Assembly: GCF_009193175.1 (NCBI RefSeq)
Contig: NZ_VUKE01000017.1
Span: 1-64,000, forward strand
From: Georgenia ruanii
Lineage (GTDB): Bacteria > Actinomycetota > Actinomycetes > Actinomycetales > Actinomycetaceae
Length of the DNA: 64,000 nucleotides
Direction: 5' to 3'
Part shown: one piece after another, positions 8,980 to 18,021 of the stretch
How positions within the stretch are numbered: position 1 is the first letter of the stretch
How the letters are laid out: each line of letters begins with the position of its first letter
Translations under genes and position numbers: made by a program
The notes under the pieces: generated by a model
What the model was told of the DNA's origin: nothing
The model's database searches: none
The model's input: only the letters and a program-made list of their open reading frames with translations

Positions 8980-10275
8980 ATGAGCCGGTACGTCGTGGTG
9001 CTGGGCAAGGCGGTGCGCTCGGTCGCGCGGCTGCGGGGCGGCGGCACGGCGCTGCCCGGCCTGGTCGTCGAGAAGCTCGACCCGGGCTTCATGGGCCGCA
9101 CCCTCGCGCAGCTGCCCCGCGGGGTCGCGGTGATCAGCGGCACCAACGGCAAGACGACCACGACGAAGATGGTCACCGAGCTGCTCGAGAGCCAGGGGCT
9201 GCGGGTGTTCACCAACCGCACCGGCAGCAACTACTCCCGGGGCGTCGTGGCGGCGCTCCTCGGCGCCGTGGACCGGCACGGCCGGCTCGACGCCGACGTC
9301 GCCGTCCTCGAGCTCGACGAGGCGCACGGCACCCGCTTCGTCCAGGAGGTCGCGCCGCGCTACACGCTGCTGCTCAACGTCATGCGCGACCAGCTCGACC
9401 GGTTCGGGGAGATCGACACCACCGCGCGGCTGCTCGAGCGCATCGCCGACGCCACCTCCGACACCGTCGTCCTGAACCGGGAGGACCCGCGCGTCGCCCA
9501 CCTCGCCGCGCACCTGCCCACCACCACCCGGGCCCGGTACTTCGGCCTGAGCCGCAAGGTGCGCCCCACCTTCCCCTCCGACGACGACCTCTACGGCGCC
9601 GCGCCCGCCGTCGCCACTCCCGACCAGGCCGCCGACGTGACGCTGGACGACTTCGACGACACCGGGGACGGGGAGGTCGACCCGGCGGCCTCCTTCTCGG
9701 TCGCCGGCGCGACGTACCGCACCCGGCTGCACGTGCGCGGGGTGCACAACCTCGCCAACGCCGCCGCGGCGCTCGAGCTGGCCCGGGTCATCGCCGGCGA
9801 CGGCGCCCCCGCCCCCCGGCTCGTCGAGGCGCTCGGCGCCGTCAGGCCGGCGTTCGGGCGCGGGGAGCAGCTGCTCGTCGACGGCCGCCCGCTGGAGCTG
9901 GTGCTGGTGAAGAACCCCGGCGGGTTCCGGCTGAGCCTGCGCTCCTTCCCCGCCGCCGGCCACGCGACGATGATCGCGATCAACGACCAGCACGCCGACG
10001 GCCGCGACACCAGCTGGCTCTGGGACGTCGACTTCACCAGCCTGCGCGACGAGGGCGTGCAGGAGGTCACGGGCATCCGCGCCTTCGACATGGCGCTGCG
10101 CCTGGCCTACGACGGCGTGCGGGTCGGCCACGTGACCAGCGACCTGTCCGGGGCGCTGCACCACCTGCTCGAGGCCAGCGGCGACCGGCCGATGCGGGTC
10201 TACTGCACCTACACCGCCATGCTGGCGCTGCGCCGTCGGCTCTCCGCCCTGACGACGGTGGAGGCGTTCGCATGA
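8980..10275 (+). CDS. murT: lipid II isoglutaminyl synthase, Mur-ligase subunit
   Basis: A 431-residue Mur ligase-like subunit of the MurT/GatD complex, which amidates the alpha-carboxyl of D-Glu in lipid II. The ATP loop is SGTNGKTTTTKM, followed by NRTGSNYSRG and LELDEAHG. The central domain continues through VHNLANAAAALELA and the C-terminal DUF1727 part has LVLVKNPGGFR. The next gene, gatD, overlaps by four bases. The four-Cys zinc ribbon found in staphylococcal and pneumococcal MurT is not seen: the region between the central NREDP and VHNLANA has no Cys. Start ATG follows GGGGTGAGCG. Confidence 0.93.
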   Translation: MSRYVVVLGKAVRSVARLRGGGTALPGLVVEKLDPGFMGRTLAQLPRGVAVISGTNGKTTTTKMVTELLESQGLRVFTNRTGSNYSRGVVAALLGAVDRHGRLDADVAVLELDEAHGTRFVQEVAPRYTLLLNVMRDQLDRFGEIDTTARLLERIADATSDTVVLNREDPRVAHLAAHLPTTTRARYFGLSRKVRPTFPSDDDLYGAAPAVATPDQAADVTLDDFDDTGDGEVDPAASFSVAGATYRTRLHVRGVHNLANAAAALELARVIAGDGAPAPRLVEALGAVRPAFGRGEQLLVDGRPLELVLVKNPGGFRLSLRSFPAAGHATMIAINDQHADGRDTSWLWDVDFTSLRDEGVQEVTGIRAFDMALRLAYDGVRVGHVTSDLSGALHHLLEASGDRPMRVYCTYTAMLALRRRLSALTTVEAFA

Positions 10276-10985
10276 CCCGCCCGGTGCGGGTGGTGTGGCT
10301 CTACGCCCGGGACATGAACGTCTACGGCGACCGGGGCAACGTCCTCACCCTCGCCCGACGGCTGGAGTGGCGCGGCTTCCCGGTGACGGTCACCGAGTAC
10401 AACCCGGGCGACCCCTTCCCCGCCGACGCCGACCTGCTCGTCGGCGGGGGCGGGCAGGACTCCGGCCAGGACCGCATCCACGCCGACCTGCACGCGCTCG
10501 GCCCGCGGCTGGCCGAGCTGGCCGCGCGCGGCACCCCGATGCTCATGATCTGCGGGATGTACCAGCTCTTCGGCCGGTTCTTCCGCACCGGGGAGGGGCG
10601 GGTCATCGAGGGCCTGGGCCTGCTCGACCTCGAGACCCGCGCCGGGCCGCGGCGCCTCATCGGCAACGTGGTGGTGCGCCACCCCGACCTCGGCGACGTC
10701 GTCGGGTACGAGAACCACAGCGGCCAGACCTTCCTCGGCGACGGCGTGCGCCCGTTCGCCACGGTGGTGCGGGGGGCGGGCAACAACGGGCGCGACGGCA
10801 CCGAGGGGGCGGTGCACCGCAACGTCATCGGCTCCTACCTCCACGGGCCGCTGCTGCCGAAGAACCCGGCGGTCGCCGACCTGCTCATCGAGCGGGCCGT
10901 CCACCGCGACCTCGAGCCGCTGGCGGGCACGGCCGACCGCTTCGCCGCGCTCTCGCGCCGGGTGGCGATGCGGCGCCCGCGCTGA
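10272..10985 (+). CDS. gatD: lipid II isoglutaminyl synthase, glutamine amidotransferase subunit
   Basis: A 237-residue class I glutamine amidotransferase that feeds ammonia to MurT. The nucleophile elbow is LMICGMYQLFG with the catalytic Cys, and the catalytic His is in NVIGSYLHGPLLPKNP. The oxyanion region GGGGQDSGQD is characteristic of GatD. ATG at 10272 overlaps the murT stop (ATGA). Both genes are short-spaced and no third partner follows; a tRNA gene begins 93 bases downstream. Confidence 0.95.
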   Translation: MTRPVRVVWLYARDMNVYGDRGNVLTLARRLEWRGFPVTVTEYNPGDPFPADADLLVGGGGQDSGQDRIHADLHALGPRLAELAARGTPMLMICGMYQLFGRFFRTGEGRVIEGLGLLDLETRAGPRRLIGNVVVRHPDLGDVVGYENHSGQTFLGDGVRPFATVVRGAGNNGRDGTEGAVHRNVIGSYLHGPLLPKNPAVADLLIERAVHRDLEPLAGTADRFAALSRRVAMRRPR

Positions 10986-11228: not shown

Positions 11229-12413
11229 TCAGAGGTGCGCCAGCGGGCGGCGCGGCGCCAGGTGGCCGCCCAGCAGCACCATCCCGGCCCCGGCGAGGAC
11301 GACGGTGAGCAGGCCCACCCGCAGCCCCGCGGCGTCGGCCACCAGGCCGACCAGCGGCGGGGAGGCGAGGAAGCCGATGCGCAGCAGCCAGCTCACCACC
11401 GTCAGCCAGGCCCCGGGCGGCAGCCCGGGCAGCTCGTCGGCGGCGGCCATGGCGCCGGGGATGAGGGTGGCGACGCCCAGGCCCGCGAGGGCGAACCCGG
11501 CCAGGGTGGTGCCCACGCTCGGCACCGCGAGGGCCAGGCCCATGCCCAGCGCCACGGCCACGCCGCCCGCGCGCCCGACCGTGGCCTGGCCGAAGCGGTC
11601 GACGACGCGGTCGCCGGTGAGCCGGCCGACCGTCATGGCCACCGACAGTGCCACGAACCCGAGGCCGGCGGTCGCCGCGTCCGCGCCCAGCGACCCGGAG
11701 AGGTACACCGCGGCCCAGGAGCTGCCGGCGTCCTCCACCAGCGCCCCGCAGATCGCCAGGACGCCGAGGACGGCGAGGCCGGTCGCCGCCGTCCGGGAGA
11801 CCCGGCGCCGGCCGCCGCCGGGCGTGGGCGCGGGCGCCTCGCGCTCGGCGTCCTCCGGGCCCGGCAGCATGAACCGCGCCGCCACCAGCGCCACGGCGCC
11901 GAACAGCACCGCGGAGACGCCCAGGTGCAGCGGCAGGGGCACCGCGAGCCCGGCGGCCGCGGCGCCCATGAGCCCGCCGGCCACCGCGCCGACGCTCCAC
12001 AGGCCGTGGAAGGAGTTGACGATCGAGCGTCGGTAGAGCCGCTGGACGCGCAGCCCGTGGGCGTTCTGCGCGACGTCGACGATCGCGTCCACCCCGCCGG
12101 CGACGAAGAGGACGACGGCGAGGACGAGCGCCGTCGGCGCCACCGACACCGCCATCAGCGCCGCGGCGAGGACAACGATGCCCAGCGTCGCGACGCGGGA
12201 GGAGCGGAACCTGGCGATGAGGGCCCCGGCGAGCAGCCCGGCCACCAGCGCGCCGGCGGGGAAGGCGGCCAGCGCGGTGCCGTAGGCGGCGTTGCTCAGG
12301 CCGAGGTCGGCCTTGATCTGCGGGTAGCGCGGGATGAGGTTGGCGAACAGGGCGCCGTTGGTGAGGAAGACGGCGGCGACGGCGCCCCGGGCCCGCCGGA
12401 CCTCCGGGGTCAC
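11229..12413 (-). CDS. MFS transporter
   Basis: A 394-residue major facilitator protein from a GTG at 12413, with about twelve hydrophobic segments in two halves. The first half has FANLIPRYPQIKADLGLSNA, often seen in actinobacterial efflux members of this family, and the second begins at about residue 205. Its start overlaps the HAD gene stop by four bases (GTGA), so they form a unit. The pair diverges from the pterin-type cluster that starts 94 bases upstream of the HAD gene, which makes export of that pathway's product a reasonable guess. Substrate cannot be read from sequence. Confidence 0.85.
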   Translation of the reverse strand: MTPEVRRARGAVAAVFLTNGALFANLIPRYPQIKADLGLSNAAYGTALAAFPAGALVAGLLAGALIARFRSSRVATLGIVVLAAALMAVSVAPTALVLAVVLFVAGGVDAIVDVAQNAHGLRVQRLYRRSIVNSFHGLWSVGAVAGGLMGAAAAGLAVPLPLHLGVSAVLFGAVALVAARFMLPGPEDAEREAPAPTPGGGRRRVSRTAATGLAVLGVLAICGALVEDAGSSWAAVYLSGSLGADAATAGLGFVALSVAMTVGRLTGDRVVDRFGQATVGRAGGVAVALGMGLALAVPSVGTTLAGFALAGLGVATLIPGAMAAADELPGLPPGAWLTVVSWLLRIGFLASPPLVGLVADAAGLRVGLLTVVLAGAGMVLLGGHLAPRRPLAHL

Positions 12414-13258
12414 GCCGCGCCCCGGGCGGCCGCGGCCCGCGCCCGCAGCAGCGCCTCGACGAACGCCGCGGCGGCGTCCTCGCCGTGGTGGCCGATCTCC
12501 AGGCGGGCCACGGCCTTGACCGGCGGGCGGGCGTTGGCCATGGCGACCGGCCAGCCGACCTGACCGAGCCACGGCACGTCGTTCTCGCCGTCGCCCAGGC
12601 CGGCGACGTGCTCGGGGGCGACGTCGAGGCGGCGGAGGATGGCCCGCAGCGCCACCCACTTGTCCGCGCCGGCGGGGCCGAGCTCGAAGACGTTGTCCAT
12701 CGAGCGCACCGCCCGCGGGAAGGCCGCACGCACGGCGCCGTCGATCTCGTCGAGGCGCTCGGCGGCGCCGAAGAGCATCGCCTTGGTCACCCCCTCGCGG
12801 GGCAGGTCGGCCAGCGGCACCATGCGGGTCACCTCGTCGGGGTGGACGCCCACGAGGTAGGGGTAGGCGACGCTGCCCTCGGCCACCACCATGTCGGTGG
12901 CGGTGAACACCAGGGGCTCGACGGCGGCGGCGAGGCCGAACGCGACGACCGCCTCGACGTCGGCGGCCGTCATCACCGCCGTGTGCAGCGGCTCGGCCAG
13001 CCGCGTGTCGACGGCGACCGCGCCGTTGGAGGCGATGGCGAACCCGTCGACGCCCGCCCCGGCGAGGATCTCGGTGGCGGCGCCGACGATCCGGCCGGTG
13101 ACGATGATCGGCTCGATCCCGGCCTCGTGCAGCGCCGCCAGCGCCCGCAGCGCCCGCGGGCTGACCCGGTGGTCGGCGCCCGCCAGGGTGCCGTCGACGT
13201 CGAACGCGATCGCGCGCACGCCCAGCAGCTCCCTGGGCAGCTCGGCGGGCAGGTCCAT
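12410..13258 (-). CDS. Cof-type HAD-superfamily phosphatase
   Basis: A 282-residue HAD hydrolase. The start is ATG 13258, behind AAGGAGTG. The nucleophile motif is AFDVDGTLA, motif II is IIVTGR, the conserved Lys is in DKWVAL and motif IV is GLGDGENDVPWL. A type II cap lies between (about residues 90-200). This class usually dephosphorylates sugar phosphates, FMN-type flavins, pyrimidine phosphates or other small metabolites. Its position facing the GTP-cyclohydrolase/PTPS/glycosyltransferase genes makes it a candidate for a dephosphorylation step there, which is inference from neighbourhood only. Confidence 0.88.
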   Translation of the reverse strand: MDLPAELPRELLGVRAIAFDVDGTLAGADHRVSPRALRALAALHEAGIEPIIVTGRIVGAATEILAGAGVDGFAIASNGAVAVDTRLAEPLHTAVMTAADVEAVVAFGLAAAVEPLVFTATDMVVAEGSVAYPYLVGVHPDEVTRMVPLADLPREGVTKAMLFGAAERLDEIDGAVRAAFPRAVRSMDNVFELGPAGADKWVALRAILRRLDVAPEHVAGLGDGENDVPWLGQVGWPVAMANARPPVKAVARLEIGHHGEDAAAAFVEALLRARAAAARGAA

Positions 13259-13352
13259 GCGGCACTCCTTGGTCGGCTCCGCCCACCGTATCGGGGCGGG
13301 CGCCCTCGCCATCCAGGTGGCGGCGGGGCGCGGGCACGACACAATCGGGCCC

Positions 13353-14324
13353 ATGTGGACCGCCTACTGGACGACGTGGCCCGGAAACGGTGAGCTGCGG
13401 GCCGAGGCCGAGCGCGACCCCGGGCCCGGCGAGGCGATCGTGCGCACGCTGCGCTCGGGCGTCAGCCGCGGCACCGAGCTGCTCGTCCACCGCGGCGAGG
13501 TCCCGGCCGAGGTGGCCGCCACGATGCGCGCCCCGTTCCAGGTCGGCGACCTGCCCGGCCCGGTCAAGTACGGCTACCTCAGCGTCGGCGTCGTCGAGGC
13601 CGGCCCGACCGAGCTGGTCGGCCGGCGGGTGTTCTGCCTGCACCCCCACCAGGACCGCTACGTCGTGCCCGTCACCGCGCTGGTCCCGGTGCCCGACGAC
13701 GTGCCCTCCGACCGCGCCGTCCTCGCCGGCACCGTGGAGACGGCCGTCAACGCCCTGTGGGACGCGGCGCCCCGGCTGGGGGACCGGGTGGCGGTCATCG
13801 GGGCCGGCATGGTGGGCGGGGCGGTGGCCGCGCTGCTGCGCACCTTCCCGCTCGGGCGCCTCGAGCTCGTCGACGTCAACCCCGCCCGCGCCGCCCTCGC
13901 CGACGCCCTCGGCGTCACCTGGCGGCGCCCCGACGACGCCGCGGGGGAGTGCGACCTGGTCATCCACTGCTCCGCCTCCGAGGCCGGGCTGGCCCGCGGC
14001 CTGGAGCTGCTCGGGGCGGAGGGCGAGCTCGTCGAGATGTCCTGGTACGGCACCCGCGCCCCGCGGGTGCCGCTGGGCGCCGCCTTCCACGCCCGGCGCC
14101 TGCGCATCCGCGCCAGCCAGGTGGGCGCAGTGGCCGCCGCCCGCCGGGCCCGCCGCACCCCGGCGGACCGGCTGGCGCTGGCGCTGGGGCTGCTCGCCGA
14201 CCCCGCCTTCGACGCCTTCCTCACCGGGCGGGCCCCGTTCAGCCGGCTGCCAGCGACCATGGCCGCCCTGGCCGACGACCCGACCGCGCTGTGCCAGGTG
14301 GTCACCTACCCCGAAGGAGACTGA
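13353..14324 (+). CDS. MDR-superfamily dehydrogenase, BchC-like, pterin-type cluster
   Basis: A 323-residue medium-chain dehydrogenase/reductase. The N-terminal domain has TLRSGVSRGTELLVHRG, where the usual catalytic Cys of zinc alcohol dehydrogenases is Ser, and the structural four-Cys zinc lobe is absent. KYGYLSVGVVEAGP and RRVFCLHPHQDRYVVP resemble the BchC-like group. The Rossmann motif is VIGAGMVGGAVAAL and a downstream Asp in LELVDVNPA suggests NAD(H) preference. It is the first gene of a tightly packed three-gene unit: its TGA overlaps the next ATG (TGATG). A redox step on a pterin- or sugar-derived intermediate is inferred from context. Confidence 0.82.
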   Translation: MWTAYWTTWPGNGELRAEAERDPGPGEAIVRTLRSGVSRGTELLVHRGEVPAEVAATMRAPFQVGDLPGPVKYGYLSVGVVEAGPTELVGRRVFCLHPHQDRYVVPVTALVPVPDDVPSDRAVLAGTVETAVNALWDAAPRLGDRVAVIGAGMVGGAVAALLRTFPLGRLELVDVNPARAALADALGVTWRRPDDAAGECDLVIHCSASEAGLARGLELLGAEGELVEMSWYGTRAPRVPLGAAFHARRLRIRASQVGAVAAARRARRTPADRLALALGLLADPAFDAFLTGRAPFSRLPATMAALADDPTALCQVVTYPEGD

Positions 14325-14704
14325 TGTTCCGCCTCACCGTCCGCGACCACATCATGGTGGCCCACTCCCTGCCCCACCCGGCCTTCGGCCCCGCCCAGCA
14401 GCTCCACGGCGCCACGTTCGTCGTCGAGATGGCGATCTCGCGCGCGGAGCTGGGCCCGGAGCGCATCGTCATGGACATCGGGGAGGCCAACGGGCTGCTG
14501 CGCGACGCGCTGGCGGACCTCGACTACACCAACCTCGACGCCCACCCCGAGCTGACCGGGGTGCTCACCACCACCGAGACCCTCGCCCGCCTGGTGGCCG
14601 AGCGGGTGGCGGTCAAGCTGCCCGTGGGCGTGTACTCCCAGCTCGAGGTCACCCTGCGCGAGCACCCCGACGCGTGGGCGAGCTACACCCTCGACCTGCG
14701 CTAG
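14324..14704 (+). CDS. PTPS/QueD-like T-fold protein with a degenerate metal site
   Basis: A 126-residue member of the 6-pyruvoyltetrahydropterin synthase/QueD family. The overall pattern fits: an N-terminal FRLTVRDHIMVAHS, the LHGATFVVEM strand, MDIGEANGLLRDALADLDYTNLD, the TTETLARLVAERVA helix and a C-terminal LEVTLREHPDAWASY. The hallmark HGH zinc pair is HGA here (His28-Gly-Ala30), and no Cys is present at all, so both the metal site and the catalytic Cys seem lost. As I recall, the S. coelicolor homologue SCO6650 has a published structure lacking zinc and catalytic triad but keeping a pterin-binding pocket. Start codon overlaps the dehydrogenase stop, and its TAG overlaps the glycosyltransferase GTG. 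Confidence 0.88.
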   Translation: MFRLTVRDHIMVAHSLPHPAFGPAQQLHGATFVVEMAISRAELGPERIVMDIGEANGLLRDALADLDYTNLDAHPELTGVLTTTETLARLVAERVAVKLPVGVYSQLEVTLREHPDAWASYTLDLR

Positions 14705-15753
14705 TGCCTCCCTCTGCGCCGGCGCTGGTGACCTGGGCCGCCGAGGGGCCCAGCGGTGGCAACACCTACAACCGCGAGCTCGTGGCGGCGCTGCGCGAGC
14801 GTGGCGTGCCGGTCGAGGTCCGGGCCGTGCCCGGCCGCTGGCCCGAGCCCACGGCGGCGGACCGCGCCGCGCTGGCGGCCGCGCTCTCCGCCCCGGTCGC
14901 GCTCGCCGACGCCATCGTCGCGTGCGCCGCGCCGGCGGAGGTCGCCGCGGCCGTGGCGGCGGGGCGCACGGTGGCGGTGCTCCTGCACATGCTGCCCTCC
15001 GCCGAGGTCGGGCTCGCGCCGGCCGAGCGGGAGCGTCGCGTGCGCGACGAGCGCGCCGCGCTGGCGGCCGCCTCGGCGGTGGTGTGCCCCAGCGCCGTGG
15101 CCGCGGCCGAGGTCGCCCGCCGCTACGGGGTGGCGGCACGGGTCGCCCCGCCCGGCGCGCGGCCCGCGCCCCTCGCCGCCGGCTCGCGGCCGCCGCGCCT
15201 GCTCGCGCTCGCGGCGCTGACGGCCACGAAGGACCAGCTCACCCTCGTCCGCGCGCTGGCCCGGCTGCCCGACCTGGGCTGGACGGCGCGCCTGGTCGGC
15301 CCCACCGACGCCGATCCCGGGTACGCCGCCGCGGTGCGCGCCGAGCTCGCCGCCGCGGGGCTGACCGGGCGGGCAGTGGTGACCGGCCCCAAGGTCGGGG
15401 CCACCCTCGAGGCGGAGTGGGCCGCGGCGGACCTGCTCGTGCTGCCCTCGCGCACGGAGACCTTCGGCCTGGTGGTGCTCGAGGCGCTGGCGCACGGGGT
15501 GCCCGCCGTCGTCGGGGCCGGCACCGGGGCGGTCGAGGCGCTCGCGGCCGGCGCGGCCGGCGCGGAAGCGGGCAGCGCGGCGCCGGGCGCCGCGGTGCCC
15601 CCCGGAGATCCCGCGGCGCTGGCGTCCGCGCTGCGCGCCTGGCTGACCACGCCCGCCCTGCGCGAGGCGTGGGCCCACGCCGCCCGGGCGCGCCGGCCGC
15701 GCCTGCCCGGCTGGGACCTCACCGCCGCGCAGGTTCTCGGCGCGCTGGGCTGA
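14704..15753 (+). CDS. GT4-family glycosyltransferase, pterin-type cluster
   Basis: A 349-residue GT-B glycosyltransferase. The GTG at 14704 overlaps the preceding TAG (TAGTG). The N-terminal domain begins LVTWAAEGPSGGNTYNRELV. The donor-binding C-terminal half has LLALAALTATKDQLTLVRAL, GPTDADPGY and the GT4 signature RTETFGLVVLEALAHGVP with its glutamates. The retaining mechanism is a family feature. Downstream it faces the GTP cyclohydrolase gene, 12 bases away. In this setting the acceptor could be a pterin or a reduced pyrimidine, but GT acceptors cannot be read from sequence. Confidence 0.87.
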   Translation: MPPSAPALVTWAAEGPSGGNTYNRELVAALRERGVPVEVRAVPGRWPEPTAADRAALAAALSAPVALADAIVACAAPAEVAAAVAAGRTVAVLLHMLPSAEVGLAPAERERRVRDERAALAAASAVVCPSAVAAAEVARRYGVAARVAPPGARPAPLAAGSRPPRLLALAALTATKDQLTLVRALARLPDLGWTARLVGPTDADPGYAAAVRAELAAAGLTGRAVVTGPKVGATLEAEWAAADLLVLPSRTETFGLVVLEALAHGVPAVVGAGTGAVEALAAGAAGAEAGSAAPGAAVPPGDPAALASALRAWLTTPALREAWAHAARARRPRLPGWDLTAAQVLGALG

Positions 15754-15765
15754 ACCGGCGGCTTC

Positions 15766-17142
15766 TCAGACGGGCGCCGCCGACAGGTCGAACTCCGTGC
15801 AGATGTCCGGCCCGAGCACGAACCGGCGCACCGGGGCCGCCAGCGCGTCGGCGAGCCGGTCGGAGCCGGTGAAGCGGATGCCTGGCACGCCGTCGCCGAT
15901 GAGCAGCGGCGCGGTGGTGAGGAAGAGCCGGTCGAGCCGGCCGGCGGCGAGGAAGGACGAGACCGTCCGTCCGCCGCCCTCGACCAGCACCCGCCCCAGC
16001 CCCCGCCGGTGCAGCGCGGCCAGCACGGTCGCCGGCGCGAACCCGTCGGGGCCGACCGGCAGGCGCACCACCTCGACGTGCCCCGCCAGGCCGCCCGGCA
16101 CGCCGGCGTCGGGCCCGACGCACCACAGGGTCGCCGCGTCGGCCTCGGTGAGCACCCGGCTGCCGGCCGGGACGCGGGCGCTGGGGTCGAGCACCACCCG
16201 GACCGGGGAGACGCCGGTGACGGCGCGCACCGTCAGCCGCGGGTCGTCGGCGACCACGGTGGCGGCGCCGACGACGACGGCGTCGACGAGCGCGCGCAGC
16301 CGGTGCAGGTGCTCGCGGTCGTCGGCGCCGGTGACGAACTCCGCGTCCCCGCTGCGCGCGGCGATGAACCCGTCGGCGCTCTGACCCAGCTGGCCGATGG
16401 TGAGGCGGGGGCCGGCGGCCACCAGCGGGCCGTACCGGTCGAGCAGCACGGTGTCGAGCCCGGCCACCGCGGCCGCGGGGACCCGCCCGGCGATCAGCTC
16501 GGACCAGGCGTCGGGGGCGGCGGCCAGGCTGTCGTGCCCCATCCGCACCCGCTTGGTGGTCAGGTAGAAGGCGTTCTCCGGCCGGTCGGCCACCGGGAGG
16601 GCCTGGCGGGAGACGACCTCGACGCCGAGGTCGGTGAGCTTGGTCGCCTTGTCCGGGTTGGAGGACAGCAGCCGGACCCGGGCGACGCCGAGGTCGCGCA
16701 GGATGGCCGCGGCGTCGTCGTACTCGCGGGCGTCGGCCGGGTAGCCGAGCCGGAGGTTCGCGTCGACCGTGTCCACGCCCTCGTCCTGCAGCGCGTAGGC
16801 GTGCAGCTTGGCGAGCAGGCCGATGCCGCGCCCCTCGTGGCCGCGGAGGTAGATGACCAGGCCCCGGCCCTCGCGGGCGATCTCGCGCAGGGCGGCGTCT
16901 AGCTGCTCGCCGCAGTCGCACCGGCGCGAGCCGAGCGCGTCGCCGGTGAGGCACTCGGAGTGCACCCGCACCAGCGGCGCGAGGTCGTCGAGGGTCTCCG
17001 CGGCGACGTCGCCGAGCACGAGCGCCACGTGGCCGAGGCCGGCCGCGCCGTCGTAGCCCAGCATCTGGAAGGTGCCGTGCGCGGTGGGCAGGGTGGTGGC
17101 CACCACCCGGCGGGTGAGGACGTGGACTTCGGCGTCGGTCAT
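15766..17142 (-). CDS. GTP cyclohydrolase II fused to a RibD-type reductase domain
   Basis: 458 residues from ATG 17142. Residues about 15-205 are GTP cyclohydrolase II: RVHSECLTGDALGSRRCDC gives the three zinc Cys, YLRGHEGRGIGLLAK is the active-site segment and LSSNPDKATKLTDLGV matches the C-terminal part. The Tyr in HAYALQDEG (equivalent to E. coli RibA Tyr105) is kept. Residues about 235-458 form a RibD C-terminal/dihydrofolate-reductase-like domain with GQSADGFIAA, VVGAATVVADDPRLTVR and LVEGGGRTVSSFL. No deaminase domain of RibD is present. Expected chemistry: GTP to a 2,5-diamino-pyrimidinone, then side-chain reduction. It faces the dehydrogenase/PTPS/glycosyltransferase unit, and is more likely specialised than housekeeping riboflavin supply, since no other rib gene is adjacent. 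Confidence 0.9.
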   Translation of the reverse strand: MTDAEVHVLTRRVVATTLPTAHGTFQMLGYDGAAGLGHVALVLGDVAAETLDDLAPLVRVHSECLTGDALGSRRCDCGEQLDAALREIAREGRGLVIYLRGHEGRGIGLLAKLHAYALQDEGVDTVDANLRLGYPADAREYDDAAAILRDLGVARVRLLSSNPDKATKLTDLGVEVVSRQALPVADRPENAFYLTTKRVRMGHDSLAAAPDAWSELIAGRVPAAAVAGLDTVLLDRYGPLVAAGPRLTIGQLGQSADGFIAARSGDAEFVTGADDREHLHRLRALVDAVVVGAATVVADDPRLTVRAVTGVSPVRVVLDPSARVPAGSRVLTEADAATLWCVGPDAGVPGGLAGHVEVVRLPVGPDGFAPATVLAALHRRGLGRVLVEGGGRTVSSFLAAGRLDRLFLTTAPLLIGDGVPGIRFTGSDRLADALAAPVRRFVLGPDICTEFDLSAAPV

Positions 17143-17233
17143 CCGCACAGATTGGCACATGAGCACGGCTCCGGGCAGCGGCGACGGGCACGCGTCTCAC
17201 CTGCGGGGCTGCCCGCTGCCCGGGGGCGCGCAG

Positions 17234-17300
17234 GGGTCGGTCGCGGGTGTGCCGGGCGGCGGGTCGGTCGCGGGCGTGCCGGGTCAGTCCCGGGCGTACC
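17234..17300. repeat. 20-bp repeat extending past the amidotransferase gene end
   Basis: Units of the type GGGTCGGTCGCGGGCGTGCC start at 17234, 17261 and 17281, the first separated by a 7-base GGGCGGC. The third copy (GGGTCAGTCCCGGGCGTACC) contains the stop and last codons of the amidotransferase gene, so the array looks like repeated copying of a gene end into the intergenic space. Confidence 0.85.
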
Positions 17301-18021
17301 GCTCGACGAAGGTGCGCAGGATGCGGTTGGGGGAGCCGTCCACGGCGGCGGTTCGGGCCATCTGCTCGACGCGGGCCTGCTCGCCCGGCGGGAAGTAGCC
17401 CGCGTCGCGGTAGATGCGGATGCGCTGGAGCAGCCCGGGCACGTCCAGCTCGGGGTGGAACTGGGTGCCGTAGAGGTTCTGCCGCACCCGGAACATCTGC
17501 ACCGGGCAGGTGGCGGAGGTGGCGAGCAGCACCGCCCCCTCAGGCAGGGAGGTCATCGCCTCCTTGTGGCCCACGAACGCGCGGAACGCCGGCGGCAGGT
17601 CGGCGAGCAGCGGGTCGGCCCGCCCGGCCTCGGTCAGCTCGATGGCGGGCGCGCTGATCTCCTCGGCGTACGTGCCGTCGATGAGCGCGCCCTGGTGGCG
17701 GCCGAGGGTGCCGACCCCGTAGCAGGCGCCCAGGAAGGGGAAGTCCTCGGCGACGACGACGTCGAGCAGCCCGGCGAGGTCCGCCTCGGCCCGGCGCTGG
17801 GTGTCGCTCTTGTGCTCGAGGGGGATGGAGCCGGTGTACGGGCTGCCCCCGACGAAGACGCCCGAGTAGTCGGCGAGCTCGATGGGCGGCAGCGGGGCGG
17901 CGTCGAGCCGGATGCGCACCAGCTCGCGCTCTTCCAGTCCGCCGTAGCGCAGGAACGCCTCGTACTCGCTGTCCGCGGCGGCGTCCTCCGGCCGCGTGGC
18001 CAGGAGCAGGAAGGGCTTCAC
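17284..18021 (-). CDS. class I glutamine amidotransferase-like protein
   Basis: About 245 residues from a GTG at 18021 (KPFLLLATRPEDAAADSEYE); the longer reading frame upstream is low-complexity. The triad is visible: FLGACYGVGTLG with the nucleophilic Cys, and TQFHPELD with His and Glu. FVGGSPYTG is the substrate-side loop seen in GMP synthase-like stand-alone amidotransferases. No synthetase domain is fused or adjacent, so the amination partner is unknown. Gamma-glutamyl hydrolase-like activity is another possibility. Lies between RibA-type fusion and DUF4190 gene on the same strand. Confidence 0.85.
   Translation of the reverse strand: MKPFLLLATRPEDAAADSEYEAFLRYGGLEERELVRIRLDAAPLPPIELADYSGVFVGGSPYTGSIPLEHKSDTQRRAEADLAGLLDVVVAEDFPFLGACYGVGTLGRHQGALIDGTYAEEISAPAIELTEAGRADPLLADLPPAFRAFVGHKEAMTSLPEGAVLLATSATCPVQMFRVRQNLYGTQFHPELDVPGLLQRIRIYRDAGYFPPGEQARVEQMARTAAVDGSPNRILRTFVERYARD

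Follow-up and report, generated by a model that had tools for sequence, protein, structure and literature searches.

A conserved gene set around an orphan PTPS-fold protein and a GTP cyclohydrolase II fusion in Georgenia ruanii and distant prokaryotes

Do a GTP cyclohydrolase II (GCH II) of riboflavin type, an atypical protein of the pyruvoyltetrahydropterin synthase (PTPS) fold, a dehydrogenase and a glycosyltransferase work together when their genes stand side by side? This question is raised by a locus in the window, the stretch of 64,000 nucleotides from Georgenia ruanii that was analysed here. The initial annotation assigned the four genes to one undescribed pathway from GTP, extended by a phosphatase and an exporter. 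On the evidence below, the four genes at 13353-17166 rather probably form the central part of a biosynthetic pathway of their own, with GTP as its starting point and the steps proposed here, although considerable doubt remains.

The locus and its proteins

The MDR dehydrogenase gene (13353-14324, plus strand), the constant partner of the PTPS gene, is followed on the same strand by the PTPS-like gene (14324-14704; PF01242 PTPS, 79 bits), whose ATG overlaps the MDR stop by 1 base, and by a GT4 glycosyltransferase gene (14704-15753; Glycos_transf_1 domain PF00534, 73.2 bits, cut-off 26.4). The probable GTG start of the latter, placed from this overlap, shares 1 base with the PTPS stop. A fusion of GCH II and RibD_C (15766-17139 or 17166, minus strand; PF00925, 211 bits, and PF01872, 121 bits) converges on the GT4 gene and lies 12 bases from its stop. 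On the other side, a Cof-type HAD phosphatase (12410-13258, minus strand; PF08282, 144 bits) diverges from the MDR gene across 94 bases and overlaps an MFS transporter gene (11229-12413, minus strand; PF07690, 69 bits) by 4 bases. These reading frames and Pfam domains agree with the gene make-up initially described.

The nearest solved chain to the PTPS-like protein is 3d7j (SCO6650; E 3.6e-28). The protein carries the motif FGPAQ.LHGAT, in which F21-G22-P23-A24-Q25 are invariant in 15 aligned rows, and its sequence places it in PTPS-IV, an orphan group of COG0720. When compared with QueD-like rows (L141, L142, L144, L145), it keeps H14, H28 and E113, but has A24 for Cys, A30 for His and Y68 for His. 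We take H14, H28 and A30 to be the zinc-His positions, A24 the catalytic Cys position and E113, invariant in 10/10 aligned PTPS rows, the Glu that anchors the pterin ring; the protein thus has no catalytic Cys and only two of the three zinc His, in line with the initial comparison to SCO6650, a homologue without zinc. In the part of PMC5445326 consulted, FGPAQ is the signature of PTPS-IV and CxxxHGH the motif of PTPS-I. The same part reports, in 2017, a PF00925/PF01872 gene neighbourhood for PTPS-IV, a trait that the window shares through the fusion at 15766-17166. Since the group was already named and its neighbourhood in print, "undescribed" is too strong a word for the pathway, although our literature search found no paper that demonstrates a function for PTPS-IV.

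Many plasmid records name this protein "6-carboxytetrahydropterin synthase" and attach a queuosine GO term, which would place it in queuosine or another 7-deazaguanine pathway. Against such a role, the CxxxHGH motif is absent, with no catalytic Cys and HGA for HGH, the NCBIfam QueD score is 39.6 (cut-off 89.3), and the gene table of 21 plasmid stretches viewed, which is incomplete, contains no further gene for queuosine. The role was rejected on the missing motif and deserves hardly any credence.

The window MDR protein has no Pfam family match at E<=0.001; however, 12/20 members of its alignment match ADH_zinc_N, and therefore the assignment is right. It contains GxGxxG and Asp174, the latter suggesting an NAD-type enzyme. 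Ser38 (SxGTE) and Tyr75 (GY), invariant in 8 divergent rows, occupy what are presumably the Cys and His ligand positions of zinc MDRs, so that the protein is predicted to be zinc-less, the catalytic ligands of zinc-dependent MDR dehydrogenases being replaced. Among NCBIfam models, HpnZ reaches 43.1 bits over the Rossmann part only, and bchC (TIGR01202) 36.6 bits, short of its cut-off of 291 bits; divergent members score 54-82 bits against bchC over most of their length, under the same cut-off.

The fusion joins GCH II to a RibD_C domain of the diaminopyrimidine reductase type, and Pfam finds no deaminase domain in it. It passes NCBIfam TIGR00505 (224.7 bits, cut-off 205.9). C63, C74 and C76, presumably the zinc cysteines of GCH II, are invariant in 21 rows, and the Tyr of AYALQD, which we take to decide the product, is present in the window. 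The RibD_C domains of cluster loci fall into two diverged types. In addition, the genome holds a second, separate GCH II, a RibBA on contig C35 beside RibD and RibE, and therefore the GCH II of the fusion is an extra copy; the absence of any other GCH II, named initially as evidence against the proposal, was looked for and did not hold. In S. coelicolor, the GCH II of the PTPS-IV neighbourhood is presumably SCO6655. This gene appears among those with expression against predicted flux (-0.61) in the part of PMC2853524 consulted, a point weakened because another GCH II, SCO2687, stands in the same list (-0.52).

Co-inheritance of the core genes

Among 59 relatives, the MDR and GT genes accompany PTPS in all 18 other PTPS-bearing genomes, with GT4 after PTPS in each. 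In a wider sample, 29/197 genomes of the class have PTPS-IV (at least 170 bits; three more with weak matches of 27-35 bits were counted as without), and the MDR gene (at least 450 bits) occurs in exactly the same 29, each time beside PTPS on one strand with gaps of at most 485 bases. Related genomes in these surveys are not independent observations; nevertheless, chance adjacency was rejected, because 18/18 relatives and 29/29 class genomes keep the arrangement. Homologues lying mostly apart would have spoken against a common pathway, and the opposite was found.

In the phylum, 62/248 genomes match the PTPS profile, only 9 of them at 180 bits or more. Sixteen lower-scoring loci were read, of which 11 have cluster genes; the other 5 are QueD-like and lack both MDR and GT, and two of them have a GCH II about 5 kb off. 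In a different family of the phylum, nine genomes carry RibD_C-MDR-PTPS-GT in one row, with a PTPS that keeps HGH, and the remaining two of the 11 loci belong to one genome.

The GT4 gene is present in 77/80 named loci, at most 1 kb from PTPS in 74, and does not adjoin PTPS in six plasmid loci. Linkage of the GTP-opening part varies more widely: 27 loci of Arthrobacter/Sinomonas type have MDR-PTPS-GT without GCH II or RibD_C in the neighbourhood, while one more locus of this type (L023, the 28th) contains both domains and was grouped with the remaining loci. At least one of the two domains is nearby in 41 of these 53, and neither was placed near the other 12, some loci being incomplete.

The 27 loci, together with the origin of both fusion domains among riboflavin enzymes, could mean that the fusion serves as a reserve enzyme of riboflavin synthesis, with MDR-PTPS-GT an unrelated neighbour. 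However, the genome owns the RibD-RibE-RibBA operon, on which this reading was rejected, and the extra GCH II tracks PTPS: at least two GCH II domains occur in 27/29 PTPS-IV class genomes and in 10/168 others. The single row in the nine distant genomes and the cyclohydrolase that occupies the equivalent position in five loci of haloarchaea (see below) also argue against it, and we regard it as very improbable.

The flanking genes fare differently from the core. The HAD phosphatase adjoins MDR in 7/11 family relatives but is found in only 1/80 named loci (L022, which looks like one of the family relatives), so it was rejected as a general part of the pathway and in the window is a possible, weakly linked member. 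An MFS gene is absent beside the locus in 5/5 relatives with enough flank (L022, L051, L129, L130, L131); it was rejected as a pathway part, and the transporter probably lies outside the system.

Spread and the wider gene set

The gene set is found in Actinomycetota, Pseudomonadota and haloarchaea, and Rhizobiaceae and Chromatiaceae carry it on plasmids as well. In 5/5 records of the plasmid collection that have a gene for an archaeal-type GTP cyclohydrolase III (GCH III), drawn from two haloarchaeal lineages, this gene lies directly upstream of MDR; the one such gene tested scores 272 bits against Pfam GCH_III. This unrelated enzyme takes the GTP-opening place in the five loci, a non-orthologous replacement, and therefore the pathway very probably begins with the opening of the GTP ring. 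Two Natrarchaeobaculum loci have GCH III-MDR and no recognisable PTPS, and a RibD-family gene was neither annotated nor found by profile in eleven haloarchaeal stretches viewed.

Haloarchaea and actinobacteria make cofactor F420, whose precursor is likewise derived from GTP via GCH II/III and RibD_C, and the cluster might serve its biosynthesis, with RibD_C and GCH II supplying 5-amino-6-ribitylaminouracil. F420 is widespread in the class, however, whereas PTPS-IV occurs in only 29/197 class genomes; the cluster extends to Rhizobiaceae and Chromatiaceae plasmids, and the known F420 enzymes, to our knowledge, need no PTPS, MDR or GT4. The part of PMC5041015 consulted attributes to PTPS-IV, from unpublished work, a role in making F420 in archaea. 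Taken together, an F420 role seems improbable.

Further genes follow the core. A CDP-alcohol phosphatidyltransferase (at least 140 bits) occurs in 27/29 PTPS-IV class genomes against 1/168 others, plus one partial 92-bit match, and a methyltransferase in 25/29 against 0/168. Among the 59 relatives, the phosphatidyltransferase (>120 bits) is present in 13/19 PTPS-bearing and 0/40 other genomes. Its pattern goes beyond linkage, because in the six same-genus genomes that possess the gene it lies away from the locus; no cluster genes were found around the unlinked gene in five genomes (L123-L127). One genome (G441) has the phosphatidyltransferase without PTPS, and no other cluster gene nearby. The methyltransferase is present in 40/80 named loci and a flippase-like membrane protein, whose association is taken from locus neighbourhoods, in 37/80, both mostly directly after GT. 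Four proteobacterial clusters contain cytochrome b561 genes. A creatininase-family enzyme matches MftE best in NCBIfam, under the cut-off, and ArfB, a deformylase, with just 20-40 bits, which leaves a deformylase role unsupported. The core initially described stood, but the phosphatidyltransferase, flippase-like protein, methyltransferase, creatininase-family enzyme and archaeal spread had been missed.

Neither the window's genome nor its nearest relative (G002) yielded an orthologue of the methyltransferase or the phosphatidyltransferase, and both keep MDR-PTPS-GT-fusion. This pattern, and the breadth of the LPG_synthase_TM and CDP-alcohol phosphatidyltransferase families, would fit a core that makes only a soluble pterin glycoside, secreted or intracellular, while lipid enzymes elsewhere make a different compound. 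The co-inheritance of the phosphatidyltransferase with PTPS even where unlinked, and the position of the methyltransferase and flippase-like genes in those 40 and 37 loci, speak against it, and a purely soluble product is accordingly a minority reading, to which we give about a one-in-several chance.

Proposed pathway and relation to known systems

The genomic comparison reveals a single set of linked genes, inherited together and including a GTP-opening enzyme, which upholds the assignment of the four genes to one pathway, apparently starting from GTP. What each enzyme does, in which order, and what is made are proposed from family chemistry. The GCH II domain would open GTP to 2,5-diamino-6-ribosylamino-4-pyrimidinone 5'-phosphate, and the RibD_C domain would reduce the ribosyl to a ribityl chain with no deamination, so that the 2-amino group recognised by PTPS folds would be kept. 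In the third and fourth steps, the zinc-less, BchC-like MDR may use NAD to oxidise a hydroxyl of the side chain, and the T-fold protein may hold the pyrimidine or pterin via its retained Glu and help to reshape it, acting without a full zinc site and without the cysteine. For example, the side chain could be oxidised at C2' and the ring then closed onto the 5-amino group; the result would be a dihydroneopterin-type phosphate, formed without the need for GTP cyclohydrolase I (GCH I). The GT4 would then add a sugar, and the product may be a glycosylated pterin or ribityl-pyrimidine. Of the order outlined initially, the GTP start and the gene set are supported, the MFS exporter and a general role of the HAD phosphatase are not, and the sequence of reactions and the product are conjecture.

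In other lineages, the methyltransferase, the phosphatidyltransferase and the flippase-like protein probably elaborate the product further, perhaps by placing it on a membrane lipid. In a bolder version, which we hold to be distinctly unlikely, bacteria and haloarchaea would share a GTP-derived, glycosylated and methylated pterin-type cofactor on a membrane phospholipid, made without GCH I, flipped, and serving there as a redox carrier, with a lipid-free form in the window's lineage. GCH II/III would open GTP, RibD_C would reduce the chain, the zinc-less MDR would re-oxidise it at C2', and the ring would close on the T-fold protein, which would do without a full zinc site; the CDP-alcohol phosphatidyltransferase would then join the compound to phosphatidyl or archaetidyl. 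The redox role would explain the cytochrome b561 genes. The product of the pathway seems not to have been identified so far: literature searches found no paper on it and none connecting membrane-lipid enzymes with PTPS-IV. A lipid-borne pterin or pyrimidine, if that is what the product proves to be, would represent a membrane molecule of a new class. PTPS-IV has a name and a solved structure (3d7j), and the defined gene set makes the product findable.

The riboflavin pathway (RibA/RibD; archaeal ArfA/ArfB/ArfC) likewise combines GTP opening by GCH II/III with ribosyl reduction by RibD_C, but neither riboflavin synthase nor lumazine synthase appears in the gene lists of the 21 plasmid stretches, and where bifunctional RibD pairs a deaminase with a reductase domain, the fusion has RibD_C beside GCH II and no deaminase. 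The closest NCBIfam relation of the four divergent MDR members tested is BchC, the bacteriochlorophyllide hydroxyethyl dehydrogenase, far under the cut-off, while the Rossmann half of the family matches sorbitol, iditol and threonine dehydrogenases; zinc MDR polyol dehydrogenases possess the metal ligands that the MDR of the locus lacks. With the tetrahydrobiopterin, QueD and folate PTPS pathways, the window protein shares a T-fold and the conserved Glu, which in PTPS folds anchors the 2-amino-4-oxo ring. Canonical PTPS and QueD proteins have three zinc His and a catalytic Cys, of which it lacks the Cys and one His, and the cyclohydrolases found with PTPS-IV, in a survey that covered GCH II and GCH III, are of these two kinds. 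The PTPS-IV group itself (SCO6650, PDB 3d7j) resembles the window protein in FGPAQ and in its GCH II and RibD_C neighbours. The part of PMC5445326 consulted names PF00925 and PF01872 as neighbours and does not name MDR, GT4, the methyltransferase, the CDP-alcohol phosphatidyltransferase or archaeal GCH III; the present comparison links PTPS-IV to a defined, co-inherited gene set across Actinomycetota, Pseudomonadota and haloarchaea.

Organization of the locus and its surroundings

The locus at 11229-17166 holds a real, widely inherited orphan pathway, and its six genes are located where the initial annotation had placed them. On the forward strand, an MDR dehydrogenase (13353-14324) with no Pfam match of its own is followed by a PTPS-like protein (14324-14704; Pfam PTPS) and a GT4 glycosyltransferase (14704-15753; Pfam GT), and these genes do overlap as proposed, by one base at each junction instead of 1-3. 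On the reverse strand, a GCH II-RibD_C fusion (15766-17166, start perhaps at 17139; Pfam GCH II and RibD_C) ends 12 bases from the GT4 gene, and the HAD (12410-13258; Pfam HAD) and MFS (11229-12413; Pfam MFS) genes, overlapping by 4 bases, diverge from the MDR-PTPS-GT4 row; this gap and the HAD/MFS overlap are confirmed. ADH_zinc_N is matched by 12 of the 20 members of the window MDR's alignment. The closest named match listed is a Georgenia locus with 76% identity, making Georgenia the probable genus of the window's genome. In the same 4.4 Mb genome, RibBA, RibD and RibE are grouped together on another contig, C35, hence the fusion represents an additional GTP cyclohydrolase II, distinct from that RibBA.

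Upstream, beside the MFS gene, lies a MurT-GatD-type pair (8980-10985, forward strand; a Mur ligase with MurT_C, plus GATase_3), which represents ordinary peptidoglycan amidation genes. A class-I glutamine amidotransferase-like gene (17284-18021, reverse strand) adjoins the fusion and is also found near the fusion in two compared loci, L022 and L131; among the best 80 named loci it has a match in L022, a weak one in L055 and no others.

Co-inheritance in genomes and on plasmids

A scan of genome contigs yielded at least 584 confirmed relatives, of which the best 80 loci, including Lamprocystis and further proteobacteria, were examined with profiles built from these same loci, the counts thus describing the set rather than testing it. 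MDR is present in 78/80 and GT in 77/80, and for each gene the distance to PTPS is at most 1 kb in 74 loci; they are accompanied by CDP-alcohol phosphatidyltransferase (42/80), a methyltransferase (40/80), a flippase-like LPG_synthase_TM protein (37/80), GCH II (35/80), RibD_C (28/80) and a creatininase-family protein (18/80). In 27 Arthrobacter/Sinomonas-type loci only MDR-PTPS-GT are grouped, with MDR and GT partly broken or cut; GCH II or RibD_C occurs in 41 of the other 53, which include one Arthrobacter locus (L023) with the full set. For the creatininase-family protein, MftE is the best match, though below the cut-off, and the likeness to the ArfB deformylase is only weak. FMN-dependent dehydrogenase genes lie near two clusters (L070, 15080-16435; L101, 13263-14570), and together with the MftE-like creatininase they are reminiscent of mycofactocin genes.

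Among the window's relatives, PTPS is present in 19 of 59 genomes, its own included, and is flanked by MDR and GT in all other 18. In a class sample of 197 genomes (requested completeness at least 95%; thresholds of at least 170 bits for PTPS and 450 bits for MDR), PTPS was detected in 29 and MDR in exactly the same 29 (next best MDR score 141), always on the same strand with a gap of at most 485 bases; three genomes with PTPS matches of 27-35 bits were scored as negative. Phosphatidyltransferase (at least 140 bits) is present in 27/29 PTPS-bearing genomes versus 1/168 others, plus one 92-bit partial match, the methyltransferase in 25/29 versus 0/168, and at least two GCH II domains in 27/29 versus 10/168. 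The Fisher values for these associations are tiny, yet they are not relied on because the genomes are related. More telling are one genus (g53), where PTPS, MDR and methyltransferase are all present in 13 of 19 sampled genomes and all absent in the other 6, and the window's relatives, where phosphatidyltransferase occurs in 13/19 PTPS-bearing and 0/40 other genomes, lying at a distance from the PTPS locus in six genomes of the window's genus. In the window's own genome, profile searches found neither phosphatidyltransferase (best match 26 bits) nor methyltransferase. The pathway core had been correctly seen in the initial annotation; its export and dephosphorylation steps were an overreach, and the lipid part and archaeal occurrence go beyond what it had recognized.

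Furthermore, 21 annotated plasmid stretches were chosen and viewed. PTPS stands beside or near MDR in 19, and GT4 is directly in the row in 13; a methyltransferase is present in 19 (18 by profile, one by annotation only), phosphatidyltransferase in 12, the RibD family in 8, and GCH II and GCH III in 5 each. Almost all of the actinobacterial set is present on plasmids of Rhizobium, Peteryoungia and Agrobacterium. In four plasmid clusters of proteobacteria (L151, L152, L154 and L155), cytochrome b561 genes (PF01292) lie next to the gene of the RibD family, suggesting a redox role of the pathway product.

In 5 of 11 haloarchaeal stretches GTP cyclohydrolase III takes the place of GCH II, and no cyclohydrolase was seen in the other 6. 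In a collection of 72,556 plasmid records, all five records matching such a gene, from Haloarcula and, at ~55% identity, Natrarchaeobaculum, have it just before MDR (family Pfam-checked in one). Since GCH II and GCH III are unrelated enzymes that both open GTP, the reaction is the conserved point. The profile search recognized no PTPS in the Natrarchaeobaculum loci, which is a point against a universal need for it. In these loci (L168 and L169), an unannotated protein of 183 aa without a PTPS match comes after the GCH III-MDR pair, and a polysaccharide-type flippase (L168, 6319-7860; PF01943, tested in L168) diverges from the pair.

The T-fold protein and the dehydrogenase

Among solved chains, the window PTPS is closest to SCO6650 of S. 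coelicolor (3d7j, E 3.6e-28), and the initial reading of an SCO6650-type homologue without a full zinc site holds. Aligned with four QueD-like proteins from its own phylum, it retains His14, His28 and Glu113 and has Ala24, Ala30 and Tyr68 in place of a Cys, the third His and a further His, which we take to be the catalytic Cys, the third zinc ligand and the catalytic His, respectively. Remoter PTPS members of the gene set retain HGH or HSH and likewise miss the Cys, thus the full zinc site was lost within the pathway while the gene persisted, and the PTPS step would seem not to require it. In nine one-family genomes of the phylum (L132-L140), arranged RibD_C-MDR-PTPS-GT, PTPS has HGH without the catalytic Cys and likely stands midway from the canonical type to PTPS-IV.

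S. coelicolor enzyme and structure studies were reportedly carried out by Spoonamore and Bandarian. FGPAQ, invariant across 15 relatives, is the published PTPS-IV signature, and the same paper gives PF01872 and PF00925 (there named GTP cyclohydrolase I) as neighbours of PTPS-IV (PMC5445326). Another paper, referring to unpublished work, assigns PTPS-IV a part in archaeal F420 synthesis (PMC5041015), and in a third both SCO6655 and SCO2687 appear among genes whose expression runs counter to the predicted flux (PMC2853524). The literature search found no publication on the pathway product.

Eight divergent MDR members share Ser and Tyr at what are presumably the zinc-ligand places of zinc MDRs, GxGxxG, and an Asp that we regard as a mark of NAD use, and the Rossmann half resembles polyol and threonine dehydrogenases. 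In NCBIfam, the window MDR matches HpnZ (43.1 bits, Rossmann part only) and bchC (36.6 bits); bchC is the nearest relation of four divergent members (54-82 bits), yet far below its 291-bit cut-off. MDR is probably a zinc-less alcohol dehydrogenase. Public annotation names many plasmid PTPS-IV proteins (e.g., L150-L167) 6-carboxytetrahydropterin synthase and gives them a queuosine GO term, and it describes the zinc-less MDR of plasmid loci as zinc-binding; these labels look wrong.

A proposed route and its product

The Asp, Gly and Arg positions of what we assume to be the catalytic motif of the phosphatidyltransferase are invariant in 20 rows, and its best, weak relations are phosphatidyl- or archaetidylinositol-phosphate synthases, suggesting a polyol phosphate as acceptor. 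Together with the flippase-like protein, it points towards a lipid-linked product wherever a lineage has both genes.

Given the enzyme families and the replacement of GCH II by GCH III, GTP would be opened and its ribosyl chain then reduced. Because the fusion is devoid of a deaminase domain, the 2-amino group should remain on the pyrimidine, which agrees with the kept glutamate of the T-fold protein. MDR and PTPS-IV may act next, the ribityl C2' being oxidised and closing on the 5-amino group to give a dihydroneopterin-type phosphate, with glycosylation by the GT4 enzyme coming afterwards. Such a ring closure would proceed on a T-fold, the fold that GTP cyclohydrolase I likewise uses.
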